NCBI RefSeq assembly: GCF_017310545.1 | Contig: NZ_CP066203.1 | Location: forward strand, 1,550,001-1,614,000 | DNA from: Methylacidimicrobium sp. B4 | Lineage (GTDB): Bacteria > Verrucomicrobiota > Verrucomicrobiia > Methylacidiphilales > Methylacidiphilaceae | Direction of reading: 5' to 3' | Length of the DNA: 64,000 bases | Part shown: piece after piece, positions 49,594-57,587 of the stretch | How the letters are laid out: the number at the start of each line of letters is the position of its first letter | Position numbering within the stretch: the stretch's first letter is position 1 | Made by a program: the position numbers and the translations under genes | The notes under the pieces: generated by a model | The model's input: only the letters and a program-made list of their open reading frames with translations | What the model was told of the DNA's origin: nothing | The model's database searches: none

Positions 49594-50757
49594 GTGAGCG
49601 CAGGACCCATGAATCCAGACGATGAGCTTGGCGTTGTTCCGCTCTGGGGACGGGGGAGCGGATATCTCCTGGCGGAAGAGCCCGTGGAGATCGTTCGGGG
49701 TAGAGGCGAGGAGTGGGAGCGACTGCGGGAGGCCTACCTGGCCCATGCGGGAAGCGGCCCCTTCGGTTCTTCTGGCGGGCTGCTCGGCACGGTCTCCTTC
49801 ACTGGCGACTTTCGCTTCGGCATCTACCGGACTTGGCACAGGAGTGCTGCGCCCTGGCGGGAAGAATCCTGGCGCCGGAGGAGTCCCGGGCATCGGGTCT
49901 TTCCTCGGCCGCTTCCCGCCGCTTCTTCTCGAACAGGGCGCGAGAGGTTCGTTGCGATGGTCCGGGAAGCCCAGGAGTATATCCGATCGGGGGACATCTA
50001 CGTGGTCAACCTCGCCCGGCGGCTCTGGTGGGAAGTTGCGGCCGATCCTTTTCGCCTCTGGGAGTGCCTGCTCGCGCAGGATCGTCCCCCAGGCAGGGGC
50101 TTCCTCAGGACCGAGAACGGATGGCTTCTCTCCGCTTCCCCAGAGCTCTTCCTGCGGATCCGAGGCAGGCGCATCGAGACACGACCCATCAAGGGCACTC
50201 TGCGCCGCTCCCTGCGCGCTGAGGTCGATTCTCCCCTGGCGCTCCAGGCAAATCCGAAGGAGCGAGCGGAGCTGCTCATGGTCACCGACATCGAGAGAAA
50301 TGATCTCGGGCGGGTCTGCCGGTTTGGGACAGTGCGAGTCAGACGGTTTGCGGCGACGACGCGTCATGCCCATCTTTGGCATCTCTATTCTTCGATCGAA
50401 GGGATCCTTCGTCCGGACATCGATCCGGTGAGCGCCCTCTTTGCCTGCCTGCCCGGCGGATCGATCACCGGGGCACCCAAGCGGCGGGCCGCCGAGATCC
50501 TCTCGCGTCTCGAATCCGAGCCCCGGGGACTCTACACAGGGGTTTTCGGATATATCGCCTTTTCCGGAGATGCGGCTTTTACCATGACGATCCGTTCCTT
50601 GGAGGTGACCTCCGAAACGGTTTCCCTAGCGATCGGCAGCGGGATTACCATCGATTCGGACCCCGTCGCGGAATACGAGGAAACCTGCCTGAAGGCGAAA
50701 GCCGGGGAGGAGGCGCTCCGTGCATACGCGGCGGGAGAGAGGAGGGTATGGGGATGA
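49594..50757 (+). CDS. pabB: para-aminobenzoate/anthranilate synthase component I (PabB-like)
   Basis: 387 residues (GTG at 49594; Met-6 at 49609 is an alternative). Chorismate-binding signatures: YIRSGDIYVVNLARR, RPIKGTLRRSLRAE, VTDIERNDLGRVC, CLPGGSITGAPKRRAAEIL, GIGSGITIDSDP-like AIGSGITIDSDPVAEYEET. The length is short for TrpE, and the IKGT lysine suggests aminodeoxychorismate synthase for folate. It overlaps hprK by four bases (ATGA). Confidence 0.87.
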   Translation: MSAGPMNPDDELGVVPLWGRGSGYLLAEEPVEIVRGRGEEWERLREAYLAHAGSGPFGSSGGLLGTVSFTGDFRFGIYRTWHRSAAPWREESWRRRSPGHRVFPRPLPAASSRTGRERFVAMVREAQEYIRSGDIYVVNLARRLWWEVAADPFRLWECLLAQDRPPGRGFLRTENGWLLSASPELFLRIRGRRIETRPIKGTLRRSLRAEVDSPLALQANPKERAELLMVTDIERNDLGRVCRFGTVRVRRFAATTRHAHLWHLYSSIEGILRPDIDPVSALFACLPGGSITGAPKRRAAEILSRLESEPRGLYTGVFGYIAFSGDAAFTMTIRSLEVTSETVSLAIGSGITIDSDPVAEYEETCLKAKAGEEALRAYAAGERRVWG

Positions 50758-51719
50758 CGAGGCCAAAAAGCACGGTCGGCTCGGTGCCGAGAGTTACGGC
50801 AAGAGAGTTCTTTGCGCAGCACGAGGAAGCCCTGCAAGGAAGGCTCGTTGCCGGCCGCTCCGGCTTGGGGCGGATGATCCTGGAAGGCTCCGTGAACCGG
50901 CCGGGCCTCCAGCTTTCGGGATATTTGAAGAACTTCGCCTGGCAAAGGGTCCAGATCATCGGCGCAGGGGAAACTTCCTACTTGAAGAGCCTGGCGACGG
51001 AGGAGGCTCGGGCCAGAGTGCGCGCGATCTTTCTGCGGAAGATCCCCTGCCTGATCGTCTCGCGCGGGATCGTGCCCCCCGACTTTCTGATCGAGGAAGC
51101 GGAGGAGACCGGAACCCCACTCTTCCTTTCGAGCTTGCACACCATGCGCCTGATCAACACGGTGACGATCTGCCTCGAGATGGATTTCGCTCCTCGGGTC
51201 AACGAGCAGGGCAGCATGGTCGATATCCAGGGGATTGGCGTCCTGCTCAAGGGGGCGAGCGGGGTCGGGAAGAGCGAGTGCGTCCTCTCTCTGATCGCCC
51301 GAGGGTATTCCCTGGTTGCGGACGACATCACGACCATCTTTTGCCTGGAGGGGAGAGAGCTGGTGGCCCGTGCCCCCGATATCAGCCGGTTTTACATGGA
51401 GGTCCGAGGAATCGGCATCATCGACGTGACGAGCCTGTTCGGCTTGCGCGCCATTCGGATCGAAAAGCGGGTGGATCTCGTTGCCACCTTGCGCGAGTGG
51501 GAGCCGGGCGACGAGATCGAGCGGGTTGGCCTCGATCAGGACGAGTACGAGATCTTGAATATCCGGATTCCCCATGTTATGATTCCCATTCGTCCTGGCA
51601 GAGACTTGGCAACCCTGGTCGAGGTGGCGGCCCTCGATCAAAAGCTTCGATCGATGGGGCATAATGCCGCTCAGGAATTCAATGAGAAGCTAACGAAGCT
51701 CACCAAGAGAAAGCAATAG
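50754..51719 (+). CDS. hprK: HPr kinase/phosphorylase
   Basis: 321 residues. Walker A GASGVGKSE at 167-175, HPrK/P signature EVRGIGIIDVTSLFGLRAIR, capping region VADDITTIFC. It phosphorylates and dephosphorylates Ser of HPr in response to ATP, phosphate or glycolytic intermediates. The start ATG at 50754 has GGAGGG upstream and overlaps the pabB stop; ATG 50748 is also in frame. Followed 15 nt later by ptsH. Confidence 0.95.
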   Translation: MTRPKSTVGSVPRVTAREFFAQHEEALQGRLVAGRSGLGRMILEGSVNRPGLQLSGYLKNFAWQRVQIIGAGETSYLKSLATEEARARVRAIFLRKIPCLIVSRGIVPPDFLIEEAEETGTPLFLSSLHTMRLINTVTICLEMDFAPRVNEQGSMVDIQGIGVLLKGASGVGKSECVLSLIARGYSLVADDITTIFCLEGRELVARAPDISRFYMEVRGIGIIDVTSLFGLRAIRIEKRVDLVATLREWEPGDEIERVGLDQDEYEILNIRIPHVMIPIRPGRDLATLVEVAALDQKLRSMGHNAAQEFNEKLTKLTKRKQ

Positions 51720-51733
51720 TACGAGCAAGCGCC

Positions 51734-52057
51734 ATGGAGAAACCGGCTGCCGGCAACGCGAACGGAACGGAGAAGGCTGCTGTAGGAGAAGCTGAGGCGG
51801 AGGTCATGATCCGCAACAAGCTTGGGCTCCATGCGCGTCCAGCGGCCATGTTCGTCAAGGTCGCGAACCGCTTCGTCTCGAATATTCAGGTCGAAAAGGA
51901 CGGGGAGGTCGTTAACGGCAAGAGCATCATGGGGATCATGATCCTCGCCGCGAATCAAGGATCCCGCTTGAAAGTATCCGCAAAAGGGCCCGATGCGGCG
52001 GCCGCGGTAATCGCACTGTGCGATCTGGTCCAGAAAAATTTCGATCCGGAGCCTTAG
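51734..52057 (+). CDS. ptsH: phosphocarrier protein HPr
   Basis: 107 residues, about 20 longer than usual at the N-terminus (an Ala/Glu-rich MEKPAAGNANGTEKAAVGEAE). Phosphorylatable His33 is in GLHARPAAMFV; the regulatory Ser64 targeted by HprK is in VVNGKSIMGIMIL. Both sites are present, so both EI- and HprK-dependent phosphorylation are possible. Confidence 0.95.
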   Translation: MEKPAAGNANGTEKAAVGEAEAEVMIRNKLGLHARPAAMFVKVANRFVSNIQVEKDGEVVNGKSIMGIMILAANQGSRLKVSAKGPDAAAAVIALCDLVQKNFDPEP

Positions 52058-52157: not shown

Positions 52158-53912
52158 ATGAGCGGCAGAGCGGAAGAATGCTTTGCGGGCGTGGCGGCCG
52201 CGCCGGGCATCGGGATCGGGCCGGCGCTAGCGGTTCGCGGAGATTACGAGTTCGTCCGTCGACGGCCCATCACGGCCGCGCAGGTCCCGGAGGAGCTCGA
52301 CAGGCTCGAGAGCGCGTTGCTCAAGACTCGGGGAGAGCTCTTGCAGGCCAAGGAAGAGCTGGTCCGCTCCTGGTCCCAGGCAAGCGATTCGCTATTCGAG
52401 GCCTATCTGCTGGCGGTCGACGATCCCACGATCCTCGAGGCGGTGAGAAGGCGGCTCGAGTCGGAGAAGGTCTGCGTCGAGGCCGCCTATCAGGACGTGA
52501 TTCGTTCCTTCGTGGCGCAGATGGAGCGGATCGATGATGCCTATCTTCGGGAAAGGGCGCTTGACGTTCGCGATGTCGGAAAGCGGGTGCTCCGAAACTT
52601 GCGGGGGGGCGAGGAGGAAGGTTTTGAACTCGACAAGCCCCGCGTCGTCGTGGCTGACGCTCTGCTGCTTTCCGATCTCGTCTCCCTCGATCGTCGCCTG
52701 CTCTTGGGAATGGTGACCGAGGAGGGGAGTCAGACCTGCCATGCGGCGATCCTGGCGCAATCGCTGAACATCCCCGCCGTCGTGGGCGTTCGCGGCATTC
52801 TCGATCGGATCGATGAGGAAGCGGAGGTCTTGGTGGACGGCTTCGCCGGCGTCGTGATTCTCCGCCCATCGGAGCAGAGGAAGTTCCAGGCGCGGGCCGA
52901 CCAAGCCCGCTTCTTCGCCCAGACCCGGGCGGCCCGAGAAAAGCGAGGGCCGGCGGCCACGAGCGACGGGCAGCGGATGCGGATCTCGGCCAACGTGGAG
53001 CTTCCGGAGGATCTGCCCCTCATCCGCGAAAACGACGCCGACGGGGTCGGGCTCTACCGTACCGAGTTTCTCTTCCTTCGCTCCGAGAATGGGCCTTCCG
53101 AGGAAGAGCAACTGGCCGTCTATCGAGAGGCGGCCGAATGGGCGAAGCCTCATCGGCTCGTGATCCGCACGCTCGATGTGGGCGGAGACAAGCTTCTTCC
53201 TTGGCTTGCCGTCAGGCCGCTGGAAAGAAACCCGACCCTGGGTTTCCGCGGGATCCGCCTTTCCTTGGAAAGACAGGAGATCTTTCGTACGCAGCTTCGC
53301 GCGATCCTTCGCGCGTCGAGCCAAGGCAATGTTTCGCTCATGTTCCCGATGGTGACCGACGTCGGCGAATTTCGCCGCGCCCGCGCGCTGTTGCAGGAGG
53401 TTCGCCAAGAGCTCGTGGCGGAAGGACATGACCTTCGGGATATACCTTGCGGCGTCATGATCGAAACGCCGGCCGCCGCCCTCATGGCCGATCTGCTTGC
53501 CGAGGAAGCGGATTTTTTTAGCATCGGAACCAACGACTTGGAGCAATATACGCTGGCCGTCGATCGGCTCAACGACCGGGTTTCCTCCCTCTATCCGACT
53601 CCGCACACGGCGGTGCTCCGGTTGATCCAGGGCGTCGTGGGCCAGGCGCACAAGCTTGGCCGTTCGGTGAGCGTCTGCGGGGAGATGGCCAGCAATCTGG
53701 CGCTGCTGCCTTTTTTTATTGCGCTCGGCGTGGAAGAGCTAAGTATGGGCTCCGTTCTCATTCCTCGGGTAAAGACCGCCGTCCGGAGCGTTTGCGCCGC
53801 GGACGCCCGTGACGGGGTGTCGGCCGCCCTCCTCCGGAAAGAGGCCTCCGAGGTGTTGGAGGAGCTGAACCGGCTGGCGGAGCGCTTTTATCCCGAGCTG
53901 CTCGCCCGGTAG
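52158..53912 (+). CDS. ptsI: phosphoenolpyruvate-protein phosphotransferase (enzyme I)
   Basis: 584 residues. Active His195 is in EEGSQTCHAAILAQSLNIPAVVG (Cys precedes the His where Ser is commonest). PEP-binding barrel: DGVGLYRTEFLFL, RTLDVGGDKLLPWL, NPTLGFRGIRL, MIETPAAALMAD, GTNDLEQYTLAVDR, VSVCGEMASN. It transfers phosphate from PEP to HPr. No EIIA/B/C components are in the window. Confidence 0.95.
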   Translation: MSGRAEECFAGVAAAPGIGIGPALAVRGDYEFVRRRPITAAQVPEELDRLESALLKTRGELLQAKEELVRSWSQASDSLFEAYLLAVDDPTILEAVRRRLESEKVCVEAAYQDVIRSFVAQMERIDDAYLRERALDVRDVGKRVLRNLRGGEEEGFELDKPRVVVADALLLSDLVSLDRRLLLGMVTEEGSQTCHAAILAQSLNIPAVVGVRGILDRIDEEAEVLVDGFAGVVILRPSEQRKFQARADQARFFAQTRAAREKRGPAATSDGQRMRISANVELPEDLPLIRENDADGVGLYRTEFLFLRSENGPSEEEQLAVYREAAEWAKPHRLVIRTLDVGGDKLLPWLAVRPLERNPTLGFRGIRLSLERQEIFRTQLRAILRASSQGNVSLMFPMVTDVGEFRRARALLQEVRQELVAEGHDLRDIPCGVMIETPAAALMADLLAEEADFFSIGTNDLEQYTLAVDRLNDRVSSLYPTPHTAVLRLIQGVVGQAHKLGRSVSVCGEMASNLALLPFFIALGVEELSMGSVLIPRVKTAVRSVCAADARDGVSAALLRKEASEVLEELNRLAERFYPELLAR

Positions 53913-53925
53913 AATGGGAGGGACG

Positions 53926-54672
53926 ATGCGTGTACTGATTCTGGCGGCTGGCTATGCAACCCGGCTTTATCCCCTCACGCAGAACCAGCCTAAGCCGCTT
54001 CTGCCCATCGCGGGGCGTCCCATCCTCGAGCACATTCTCGACCGGGTCCGCTCGCTGGGCGGCCCGGTTGAATGCCTGATCGTCACGAACCACCGCTTCG
54101 CGGAAGCCTTCGAGGAATGGGGTCAACGCTACCGAATAGAGCAGCCTGGGCTTGATCTCAAGATCTTGGACGACGGCTCCACCTCGGAAGCGGACCGTCT
54201 GGGTGCCATCGGCGATCTCGCCTTCGTGATCGAGGAGGAGAGGATTTCCGAAGAGCTCCTGGTCATTGCAGGAGACAACCTCTTCGATGCGCCGCTCGGC
54301 GATTTCGTAGCTTACGGACGAAAGATCGGCAAGCCCGTCGTCGGAGTCTACGACGTGGGCGATCGGGAGGCGATCCGTCGATACAACCACATCCGGCTCG
54401 ACGGGGAAGGACGCATCGTCTTCTTCGAGGAGAAGCCGAAGAATCCCGAAGGGACCCTCACGGCCATCGCCCTCTACTACTTTCCTTCGGAGGCATGGAC
54501 TTACCTCCGTCAATATCTGGCCGAAGGAGAGAGTCGGGATCAGCCCGGCCGATTCATCGAATGGCTCTATCGGCGTCACCCCGTCTTTTCCTGGCGGCTT
54601 CCGGGAAGATGGTTCGATATCGGCGACTTTCCCATGCTCGAGCAGGCGGATCGCGCTTTTGCCGAAGGTTGA
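53926..54672 (+). CDS. sugar-phosphate nucleotidyltransferase
   Basis: 248 residues from MRVLILAAGYATRLYPLT (53926; GGGAGG five bases upstream; ATG 53914 is a less likely start). N-terminal nucleotide-binding motif is a variant of LxxGxGTR (LAAGYATRLYPLTQNQPKPLLPIAGRPIL), then VIAGDNLFDAPL and FFEEKPKNPEG. Likely uses dTTP, UTP or CTP with a sugar-1-phosphate; the sugar is not known. It lies between ptsI and murL. Confidence 0.85.
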   Translation: MRVLILAAGYATRLYPLTQNQPKPLLPIAGRPILEHILDRVRSLGGPVECLIVTNHRFAEAFEEWGQRYRIEQPGLDLKILDDGSTSEADRLGAIGDLAFVIEEERISEELLVIAGDNLFDAPLGDFVAYGRKIGKPVVGVYDVGDREAIRRYNHIRLDGEGRIVFFEEKPKNPEGTLTAIALYYFPSEAWTYLRQYLAEGESRDQPGRFIEWLYRRHPVFSWRLPGRWFDIGDFPMLEQADRAFAEG

Positions 54673-54680
54673 GTGGATCG

Positions 54681-56027
54681 ATGTCGAGCCTGTCGAGAAC
54701 GAGTTGGCGGCGCTGTGAAGAGCTTTGCTACGAAGGCTTTCGCTACTGGCTGCATAAGAACCGGATCTCCGTGCTCTTTTCCTTCCGCCTCGGCGATTCC
54801 CTGGTGTTTCGTCCACGCAGCTCCTTCCCCGTCGCTCCCCCCCTTCCGGGCAAGGAGATGCTCGACCCGCTGATTTTTAGCCTGGGCCTCATCGAGCTCG
54901 TCAGCTACTGGAAGGCGGCTTGCCCGCCGCGGATTCGCATCCAGGCGGGGCGGTTGAGCGACGAGCAGATCGCCTGGTGGAAGCGGCTCTATTTCCGGGG
55001 GCTGGGCGAGTTCTTCTTTCGCAATGGCCTTGCCGTCACCGAGGACGAGTTCGCCGAAATCCAGGCCTCGGGACCCCGCTTCGCTCCGTTCGAGCGGCGC
55101 GACTGCACCGGAACCCTCGTTCCGGTGGGTGGCGGAAAGGACTCGTTTGTGACCCTCGACCTTCTTCGCGCAGGGGAGGCGCCCGTGACCCCCTTTCTGC
55201 TCAACTCCTCTTGGGAGCAGCGAAGCACCCTTTCCGCCTTTGGCTTTTCCCTCTCGCGTACCGCAATCGCGAAGCGAACGATCGATCCCCTGCTTTTGGA
55301 TCTCAACCGGCGAGGGTTTTGGAACGGACATACGCCATTTTCCGCTCTCCTGGCGTTTGCCGCCCTCTTGACCGCCGCAACACTGGGCAAACGGTGGATT
55401 GTGCTCTCCAACGAAGCGAGCGCTGAGGAGCCGACCATTTTGGGAAGCCAGATCAACCATCAATATTCGAAGAGCTTCGCCTTCGAGCGTGACTTCGCGA
55501 GCTATGCGGCCCGCTGGATTACGCCAAGCGTGGGCTACTTCAGCCTCTTGCGTCCCTGGAACGAGCTGCAGATCGCCGCGCGATTTGCCCGCATCCCGGG
55601 AGCGCTCGGACGGTTTCGGAGCTGCAGCTCTCCCGGCCGGAGCTGGTGCGGTCGCTGCGCGAAATGTCTCTTTGTCGCCCTGATTCTCTCCCCTTTTGTG
55701 GAAAGACGGAGGATAGAGGAGATTTTCGGCCGGGAGTTGCTCGAGGATGTTTCCCTGGCTCCATTCTTTTTTTCCCTTCTGGGCGGAGAGAAGAGCAAGC
55801 CATTTGCCTGCGTGGGAACGCTCGCCGAGTGCCGGGCGGCGGCGGCTCTGCTCGCCCGTCGCCCTGCCCCTCCTCTCTTGGTGAGGCTCGCCAAAGAGCG
55901 GGGCCTCCTGAAAGCTGCCGATCCCTCGGTCGAAACGCTGCTGGCTTCCTGGAATTCCGATCATGGTCTTCCCTCGGAGTTCCTTCCGCTGCTCGATCCC
56001 TTTGGGCCGGCTTCCTTCTTCGCATGA
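54681..56027 (+). CDS. murL: UDP-N-acetyl-alpha-D-muramoyl-L-alanyl-L-glutamate epimerase
   Basis: 448 residues. Resembles MurL: YEGFRYWLHKNRISVLFSFRLGD, DPLIFSLGLIELVSYWKAACP, GGGKDS at 150-155 (LVPVGGGKDSFVTLDLL), SNEASAEEPTILGSQINHQYSKSFAFERDF, and the CGRCAKCLF cysteines. MurL epimerises the L-Glu of UDP-MurNAc-L-Ala-L-Glu to D-Glu after MurD2 has added it. The ATGA overlap with the following murD-like gene supports the assignment. The name rests on motif and context, not an alignment. Confidence 0.82.
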   Translation: MSSLSRTSWRRCEELCYEGFRYWLHKNRISVLFSFRLGDSLVFRPRSSFPVAPPLPGKEMLDPLIFSLGLIELVSYWKAACPPRIRIQAGRLSDEQIAWWKRLYFRGLGEFFFRNGLAVTEDEFAEIQASGPRFAPFERRDCTGTLVPVGGGKDSFVTLDLLRAGEAPVTPFLLNSSWEQRSTLSAFGFSLSRTAIAKRTIDPLLLDLNRRGFWNGHTPFSALLAFAALLTAATLGKRWIVLSNEASAEEPTILGSQINHQYSKSFAFERDFASYAARWITPSVGYFSLLRPWNELQIAARFARIPGALGRFRSCSSPGRSWCGRCAKCLFVALILSPFVERRRIEEIFGRELLEDVSLAPFFFSLLGGEKSKPFACVGTLAECRAAAALLARRPAPPLLVRLAKERGLLKAADPSVETLLASWNSDHGLPSEFLPLLDPFGPASFFA

Positions 56028-57358
56028 CTCCCCATCTAGAGCTGGTCCGCTTTCTCGAAGGGAAGAAGATCCTCGTCTGGGGCTTGGGTCGGGAGGGCAA
56101 GGCGACTGTCAATCTCCTCCGGCAGCTTCTCCCCGGGCAGCCCTTTGTGGCCGCAGATCGGAGCTTGGCTGCTCTGGAAGCCACCGAGCTCGTCCCGCTC
56201 CCGGTCGATCGGATTCCGGAATCCGAAGCGCTGCGGCGGCTTCCGGAATTCGACCTCGTTTTCAAGGCGCCGGGCATTCCGACGCGCCAGCTCGCTCTCG
56301 ACGGCCAGGCGGGAAAGATCGCCTGCCAGGCCGATCTTTTTCTCCAATTTGCCCCTTGCCCGATCGTTGGCGTCACCGGAACCAAGGGCAAGAGCACGAC
56401 CGCAACCCTCTTGGCGCATATCTGTCGGTGCGCGGGCCGGCAGACCTTCCTTGTCGGCAACATCGGCATTCCGCCCTTTACCGTCTGGAGCGATCTCCGG
56501 CCCGAATCGGTCGTGATTTGCGAGCTCTCCTCCTATCAGCTCGAGCTTGCGCGAAGCTCCCCCCACATCGCTCTTTGGACCAATCTCTATCCCGAGCACC
56601 TCAACTTTCATGGAAGCTTCGCCGCCTACGGGCTGGCCAAGAGCCGGATTGCTCGTTGGCAATCCGCGGATGACGTCCTGATCTACTCGGGTGAGGACGT
56701 CAGGATTGCCGACCATCTCCGGATCGAAGGGGGAGCCGCTCGGAGAATTCCCTATCAAGGTCCGGAGGATCTGCCGGAGATCGATTTTTCCCGCTTCCAG
56801 CCACTCGGGGGGCATAACCGGAAGAATGCGGCGGCCGCGCTGTTGGCCGCAAAGGTCTTGGGAATCCCGCCATCGGCGATGCAGGAGGCGATCGACTCCT
56901 TTTCGCCCTTACCCCATCGGCTGGAGCCGGCGGGCTCTGTCCGGGGGATTGCTTTCTACAACGACTCGATTTCGACCGTTCCCGAGTCCGCTCTGGTGGC
57001 GCTTGCCGCCCTTCCCCACGCCCGGACCCTGATCGTGGGAGGGCAAGACCGGGGGCTACCGCTCGAAGGCTTTGCGCGTTCCCTGGCGGCTTCTCCTGGC
57101 TTGCGGTCGATCATCCTTCTCCCGGAGACCGGTTCCCGGCTCGGGAATCTCCTGCGGGGAGCCGACGTCTCGTTCTCCGGAAAGCTTTTCTTCGTGGAAA
57201 CGCTCGAGGCTGCGGTTCGTACGGCGATGGCCCAGACTCCGGAAGGGACATGCTGCCTCTTCTCTCCGGCCGCTCCCAGTTATAACGCCTACCGCAACTT
57301 CGAAGAGCGTGGCAACCATTTCCGGGCCCTGATTTGCCGGGCGCAAGGCGAGGCCTAG
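56024..57358 (+). CDS. murD2: Mur ligase, probably MurD2 (UDP-MurNAc-L-Ala--L-Glu ligase)
   Basis: 444 residues. ATP loop GVTGTKGKSTTATLL (116-130), NIGIPPF, VVICELSSYQLELARSSPHIALWTNLYPEHLNFHGS, HRLEP and the C-terminal NDSISTVPESALVALAAL. MurD-type, but because murL is fused in the operon it more likely joins L-Glu than D-Glu. The family distinction is inferred from neighbours. The four-base overlap implies coupled expression. Confidence 0.85.
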   Translation: MTPHLELVRFLEGKKILVWGLGREGKATVNLLRQLLPGQPFVAADRSLAALEATELVPLPVDRIPESEALRRLPEFDLVFKAPGIPTRQLALDGQAGKIACQADLFLQFAPCPIVGVTGTKGKSTTATLLAHICRCAGRQTFLVGNIGIPPFTVWSDLRPESVVICELSSYQLELARSSPHIALWTNLYPEHLNFHGSFAAYGLAKSRIARWQSADDVLIYSGEDVRIADHLRIEGGAARRIPYQGPEDLPEIDFSRFQPLGGHNRKNAAAALLAAKVLGIPPSAMQEAIDSFSPLPHRLEPAGSVRGIAFYNDSISTVPESALVALAALPHARTLIVGGQDRGLPLEGFARSLAASPGLRSIILLPETGSRLGNLLRGADVSFSGKLFFVETLEAAVRTAMAQTPEGTCCLFSPAAPSYNAYRNFEERGNHFRALICRAQGEA

Positions 57359-57390
57359 GAAAGAGAAAAAGGATGCGCCAGAGACGAACC

Positions 57391-57462
57391 TGGGCAGGCA
57401 GGGATTCGAACCCTGAACCAAGTGCTTAAAAGGCACCTGCTCTGCCGTTGAGCTACCTGCCC
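57391..57462 (-). tRNA. tRNA-Lys (anticodon TTT)
   Basis: Minus-strand clover-leaf: acceptor GGGCAGG/CCTGCCC, D arm GCTC...GAGC, anticodon loop CTTTTAA (TTT), T arm CAGGG TTCGAAT CCCTG, discriminator A. CCA is not encoded. Lies between murD2 and folE2, opposite in direction to both. Confidence 0.95.
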
Positions 57463-57587
57463 ACGGGTACGCTAGCGAAGGGGGAAGGCCCCTCCAAGTG
57501 AAAAGCGTGCGTTTGCGCGCGGAGGGCGGGGACAAACACGCTTTGCAGCGGGTGACCGAATGGATATGCTGAGAGACTTTCTCTCCC

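Follow-up and report, generated by a model that had tools for sequence, protein, structure and literature searches.

A predicted MurD2-MurL route to peptidoglycan D-glutamate in Methylacidimicrobium and its order, with a QueC-like predicted fold for MurL

Wall synthesis universally requires a supply of D-glutamate (D-Glu). The MurD2-MurL route to this residue has been known since the work of Feng et al. (2017) on Xanthomonas, as described in two reviews. MurL is reported to use one ATP, release AMP and work in one direction only, and adenylation of the alpha-carboxylate was proposed for it without a known domain (PMC8788868). According to the same 2021 paper, only a fairly small number of genera have the route and MurL is free of known domains; in the text available to us, it lists the pair for Gammaproteobacteria, Alphaproteobacteria and rare actinobacteria only. 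A 2018 review, in its available portion, also mentions orthologs of low similarity from cyanobacteria, one fungus and one amoeba. Residues that govern the chirality of the ligase are also described. Glu197 and Arg358 of Xanthomonas oryzae MurD2 (equivalent to Asp182 and Lys348 of Escherichia coli MurD) set the use of L-Glu, and changing both switched the enzyme to D-Glu; E. coli MurD K319T accepts L-Glu; and published mutants at the Pro and Phe that occupy the positions of E. coli A414 and L416 had no effect on stereospecificity (PMC8788868).

Here we analyze a window, meaning a whole stretch of 64,000 nucleotides, from Methylacidimicrobium sp. B4 (NZ_CP066203.1, positions 1,550,001 to 1,614,000). 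Two adjacent genes in this window very probably encode a MurD2-MurL route to peptidoglycan D-Glu that replaces MurI and canonical MurD in this genome. MurD2 would attach L-Glu to the wall precursor and MurL would then flip the attached L-Glu to D-Glu in place, with the chirality of both reactions assigned by analogy to the published Xanthomonas pair. The route is supported, by sequence, by homology, gene linkage, a residue signature, the missing alternatives and a QueC-like PP-loop fold. The features of the locus are as follows.

50745..51719, plus strand: HPr(Ser) kinase/phosphatase, start codon provisional (TIGR00679 over cut-off)
51734..52057, plus strand: HPr (TIGR01003 over cut-off)
52158..53912, plus strand: PTS enzyme I, PEP-protein phosphotransferase (TIGR01417, 520 bits, over cut-off)
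53914..54672, plus strand: sugar-nucleotidyltransferase (PF00483), 8 bases upstream of murL and kept as its neighbor in Methylacidiphilaceae
54681..56027, plus strand: murL, 448 aa (NF041275, E 2.2e-76; AlphaFold pLDDT 92.3), with GGGKDS at residues 150-155 and cysteines C315, C323, C326 and C329
56024..56027, plus strand: ATGA overlap of the murL stop (TGA) and the murD2 start (ATG), read from the sequence
56024..57358, plus strand: murD2, MurD-type ligase predicted to add L-Glu, 444 aa (TIGR01087, residue alignment, tree)
57390..57463, minus strand: tRNA-Lys(ttt), convergent, the downstream border of the gene run (ARAGORN)

The order on the plus strand is thus a pabB-like gene, HPr kinase, HPr, enzyme I, nucleotidyltransferase, murL and murD2, followed by the convergent tRNA-Lys gene. 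A sequence-only reading of this DNA had described a GGGKDS protein of MurL length that overlaps by ATGA with a MurD-type ligase, embedded in an operon with HprK, HPr, enzyme I and nucleotidyltransferase genes. NF041275, TIGR01087 and the sequence itself confirm the pair, and the upstream genes are as claimed, with the pabB-like gene in addition. MurU, a wall recycling enzyme, was considered as an identity for the nucleotidyltransferase and rejected: two MurU models, with cut-offs of 250 and 370 bits, reach only 45 and 42 bits and are outscored by other sugar nucleotidyltransferase models, so we do not claim this identity.

The window pair resembles the MurD2-MurL pair of X. oryzae (XOO_1320-XOO_1319) in the adjacency of its genes, a near-full-length MurL match, the E and R residues of the ligase with Pro at the third position, and a genome without MurI or a recognized D-amino-acid transaminase. 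It differs in belonging to another phylum, in its linkage to genes for HPr kinase, HPr and enzyme I, and in a ligase with Tyr rather than Phe at the fourth position. The Xanthomonadales MurL model, NF041275, spans residues 30-437 of the window protein (91% of its length) at 257 bits, below its own equivalog cut-off of 700, a score that is expected because the model was built on one order.

At least 588 MurL relatives were found in a contig scan, and the best 80, mostly from Bacteroidales and Clostridia, were kept. In 77 of these 80 loci from other genomes murL and a murD gene lie side by side, and in 2 more they are fused, which excludes chance pairing; no MurD frame was found beside MurL in the remaining one (L079). 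The two natural fusions encode proteins of 924 and 937 aa (L042:3938-6712 and L101:3887-6700), and G406, G434 and G508, in which MurL lies in open frames of 885-949 aa, may hold further examples. The MurL of the nearest named relative, a Candidatus Methylacidiphilaceae metagenome-assembled genome (MAG; L033), is 79% identical to that of the window and has the same neighbors.

The window ligase scores 283.6 bits against TIGR01087 (cut-off 212). It shares with canonical E. coli MurD the Mur ligase architecture and the catalytic residues (P-loop lysine, H183, K198, R302 and D317), but it carries E, R and I in place of D182, K348 and K319 (E. coli crystal numbering; reference residues from PMC8788868 and the E. 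coli MurD sequence), and its gene lies outside the dcw cluster, beside murL. The predicted chirality-determining residues of the window ligase are those published for MurD2. It has Pro at 414, as in MurD2, and Tyr instead of Phe at 416; in other MurL-linked MurDs, Ala or Ser predominates at the first of these positions and Tyr at the second. Among MurL-linked MurDs, E182 and R348 were found together in 84 of 88 (three have D182, and one, A_L080, is truncated, unreadable in the residue alignment and left out of the tree), and Ile319 in all 87 that could be read. Unlinked verrucomicrobial MurDs had E182 in 0 of 40 and both K348 and K319 in 40 of 40, in a control set that leans to canonical MurDs because its members were hand-picked from the best-scoring places, 20 from genomes with MurI over cut-off and 20 from genomes without MurI and MurL; MurD was matched in 259 of the 288 genomes of the phylum. 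A tree of 147 MurDs likewise places the 87 MurL-linked proteins, including the window ligase, on one side of a branch and the other 60 on the opposite side (SH-aLRT 99, quick method). The three residues at 182, 348 and 319 would constitute a signature that separates predicted L-Glu ligases from D-Glu ligases. R348 alone was rejected as a marker of L-Glu use, as Streptococcus mutans MurD naturally has Arg there (PMC8788868), and E182 and I319 are the better discriminators.

The genome of the window (2.37 Mb in one contig, 99.96% complete) was searched for other sources of D-Glu. No PF01177 (Asp/Glu-racemase family) protein was found in it, using a search that was positive in 10 of 14 control genomes, and no D-amino-acid transaminase scored over cut-off; both absences had been proposed as checks by the sequence-only reading. 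The genome contains two class-IV aminotransferases. The longer one scores 451 bits with the branched-chain model (cut-off 363) and 208 bits with the D-amino-acid transaminase model (cut-off 277), and the second, of 247 aa, matches only aminodeoxychorismate lyase models up to E 1e-20, all under cut-off. The single MurD over cut-off is the window ligase, and the dcw cluster (murE, murF, mraY, ftsW and murC-murB) has no murD, with a LysM protein between mraY and ftsW. Because there is no PF01177 protein, only one MurD and no murD in the dcw cluster, the combination of murI and a second canonical murD, which would have spoken against the route, is absent. The E/R/I residues, the missing MurI and transaminase and the single MurD all favor the earlier proposal that L-Glu would be added first and then epimerized, replacing glutamate racemase. 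While the genome is without a recognizable glutamate racemase or D-amino-acid aminotransferase, a promiscuous IlvE-like enzyme or DapF might still be a source. In the same genome, MurC and MurB matches fall in one open frame (L019:13519-16740), a fusion type reported for Verrucomicrobium spinosum (PMC4803751).

One alternative interpretation is that DapF doubles as the glutamate racemase, that the window MurD uses D-Glu and that the MurL homolog has another function. Chlamydia trachomatis DapF has been shown to have glutamate racemase activity, and the same was proposed for bacteria of the PVC superphylum that lack MurI (PMC5885031); among 288 Verrucomicrobiota genomes, no more than 76 have MurI over cut-off. 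Since MurI is so infrequent in the phylum, its absence is weak evidence alone, and we rejected it as stand-alone proof of the route: 212 of the 288 genomes are without MurI over cut-off and only 10 have any MurL match. Nevertheless, we consider the DapF explanation very unlikely for the window. The 20 sampled MurDs of genomes without MurI and MurL, to which the DapF idea could apply, keep K348, K319 and D or N at 182, whereas the MurL-linked MurDs differ, and the dcw murD has been lost in the window genome. Moreover, DapF was offered for Xanthomonas too (PMC5885031), where MurL-MurD2 is the demonstrated route (PMC8788868). These observations narrow the DapF proposal as it applies to PVC bacteria that lack MurI. 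Both MurI and MurL are missing from approximately two thirds of the 288 Verrucomicrobiota genomes, with canonical-type MurDs in 20 of 20 sampled, and DapF is the published proposal for D-Glu in such bacteria (PMC5885031).

Alternatively, the pair could act on another peptide or wall modification, with wall D-Glu made by some promiscuous aminotransferase, for instance the IlvE-like protein. The score of 208 bits of that protein with the D-amino-acid transaminase model and the coexistence of canonical MurD with MurL in 19 of 40 other genomes, described below, could be read in this way. Against this stand the lack of a second MurD in the window genome to use free D-Glu, the lack of any transaminase over the D-amino-acid cut-off in the 48 genomes tested, and the mutual exclusion of MurL and MurI in 198 genomes, and we give this explanation even less credence than the previous one.

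The distribution of MurL also favors the MurD2-MurL route. MurL is present in all 8 sampled genomes of the window's order, Methylacidiphilales, and MurI is over cut-off in none of them (G078 has a 28-bit match). The 10 MurL matches among the 288 Verrucomicrobiota genomes comprise 7 of 7 genomes from the family, the single further genome sampled from the order, and two weak relatives in remote genomes. One of these two, G216, lacks the four cysteines, has a linked MurD with D182 and lies on a 4.7-kb contig; the other, G126, runs to a contig edge and has no MurD there. Outside the phylum, 198 genomes of a Bacteroidales order (that of G289) contained full-length MurL in 67 cases, MurI in 120, both in 0 and neither in 11 (Fisher p 1e-41, uncorrected for relatedness); G379 (a contig-end fragment, 101 bits), G402 (29 bits) and G513 (21 bits, with MurI) were not counted as having MurL. 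In the class of G314 (Mordavella), 13 of 291 genomes have MurL. MurI was over cut-off in 1 of 40 MurL genomes (G324), with weaker matches in 13 more; these are 40 of the best 80 and lie outside the sampled Verrucomicrobiota set, L033 being a member of Methylacidiphilaceae. The MurI of G324 sits on a 4.9-kb contig (L184), and so may reflect a binning error.

The same gene pair thus appears to occur in many gut and environmental bacteria in which it was previously undescribed and the usual glutamate racemase is missing. In the available text of the papers retrieved by our literature search, the route was not described for Methylacidiphilum, Methylacidiphilales or Bacteroid- groups. New here are the finding of the route in each of the 8 sampled genomes of an order for which DapF had been proposed as the D-Glu source, and its occurrence across Bacteroidales and Clostridia, which goes beyond the groups listed in the literature. 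These results extend the route to a further phylum and to two large groups with many gut members, and quantify the exclusion of MurI.

The predicted structure of MurL may explain how it works. The AlphaFold model (pTM 0.93) has its best PDB match in QatC (Foldseek E 3.8e-5; VIA-align Z 19.1, 3.6 A, 319 aligned), followed by QueC (Z 12.9 and 12.6) and Cap9 (Z 12.3), with other PP-loop enzymes at 8.7 or less; only matches, never absences, in Foldseek and VIA-align were counted as evidence. Sequence identity to QatC, QueC and Cap9 in these alignments is 12-18%. The model and its matches indicate a PP-loop fold with an SGGxDS-type loop, and a TtuA profile matches the region around GGGKDS (E 5e-4). 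In an alignment of 64 MurL rows (63 of the 77 unfused frames plus P0001), GGGKDS and the four cysteines are invariant in 64 of 64, the first cysteine spacing being 7 in 2 rows and 9 in 62. The hallmark motifs of QueC are SGGxDS and Cx8CxxCxxC (PMC13329287), and the E. coli QueC sequence holds both. The Cx7-9CxxCxxC of MurL is close to the latter, and the motif suggests a zinc site. The Pfam QueC profile (PF06508) has no match in window MurL and matches 13 of 64 MurL relatives weakly (best E 0.0029); because the window match is absent, we describe MurL as having a QueC-like fold and do not call it a QueC.

In the QueC reaction, ATP serves to activate a carboxylate (PMC13279940), and a QueC-like scaffold would therefore be a natural basis for the adenylation proposed for MurL. 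QueC, QatC and Cap9 share with MurL the predicted fold, the loop (GGGKDS for SGGxDS) and the proposed use of ATP on a carboxylate, and the cysteine motif of MurL is close to that of QueC; QueC differs in forming an amide rather than epimerizing, and in acting on a deazaguanine rather than a peptidoglycan precursor. The acyl-adenylate that MurL would form is a hypothesis already published; the QueC-like predicted fold with a cysteine motif close to the zinc motif of QueC, which would fit carboxylate adenylation, is new. The available text of the two QueC papers (PMC13329287 and PMC13279940) does not mention MurL, and our literature search found no paper linking MurL with QueC. We think it probable that MurL is a repurposed QueC-type PP-loop enzyme in which an acyl-adenylate makes the alpha-proton acidic and allows one one-way inversion per ATP, and that, with an L-Glu ligase, it constitutes a major bacterial D-Glu route (8 of 8 genomes of this order and a third of the Bacteroidales order, where it excludes MurI). 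If true, this would overturn the DapF suggestion for Methylacidiphilales. A role of MurL in defense, like that of QatC, was considered and rejected, as PADLOC gave no match up to E 1. Pfam PF19932 (DUF6395) is weakly matched by 56 of 64 MurL relatives (best E 5e-5) and may represent a further MurL-like group.

The sequence-only reading also suggested that the HPr kinase/HPr/enzyme I operon couples wall synthesis to PEP-dependent phosphorylation. The gene order itself stands: the run from pabB through hprK, HPr, enzyme I, nucleotidyltransferase, murL and murD2 is kept in 4 of 4 family genomes with a wide locus (G265, G072, G008 and G042), the narrower loci of G054 and G152 show enzyme I to murD2, and L033 has hprK through murD2. 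However, murL of G078, which belongs to the same order, has no PTS genes around it, and HPr, enzyme I and hprK had no match in the other 79 loci, with flanks of at most about 4 kb; in L037, from Bacteroidales, the murL neighbors include an AlgH-like gene and one for a SpoU-type methylase. Shared transcription is not equal to regulation. Conservation in one family is the only support found for the signaling link, which we consider unlikely, and the arrangement counts as evidence of synteny, not of regulation.

A simple replacement of MurI and MurD does not account for all MurL genomes. A full canonical MurD, without MurI over cut-off, is also present in 19 of 40 (L158-L176), and these MurDs have D182 in 18 cases and N182 in 1, with K348 and K319. 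The simple replacement story leaves these 19 unaccounted for; the retained enzyme may use salvaged D-Glu or be on its way out. The window genome, with MurD2 alone, is the end state. In another 6 of the 40 genomes, all Bacteroidota, a stand-alone C-terminal MurD domain of 182-204 aa takes the place of the dcw murD between mraY and ftsW (L177:6110-6658, L178:4134-4682, L179:2415-2963, L180:2248-2796, L181:2320-2868 and L182:2505-3119). Five of the six domains are 182 aa long with the same start, and because the frame is open and conserved, the domain may have a function of its own.
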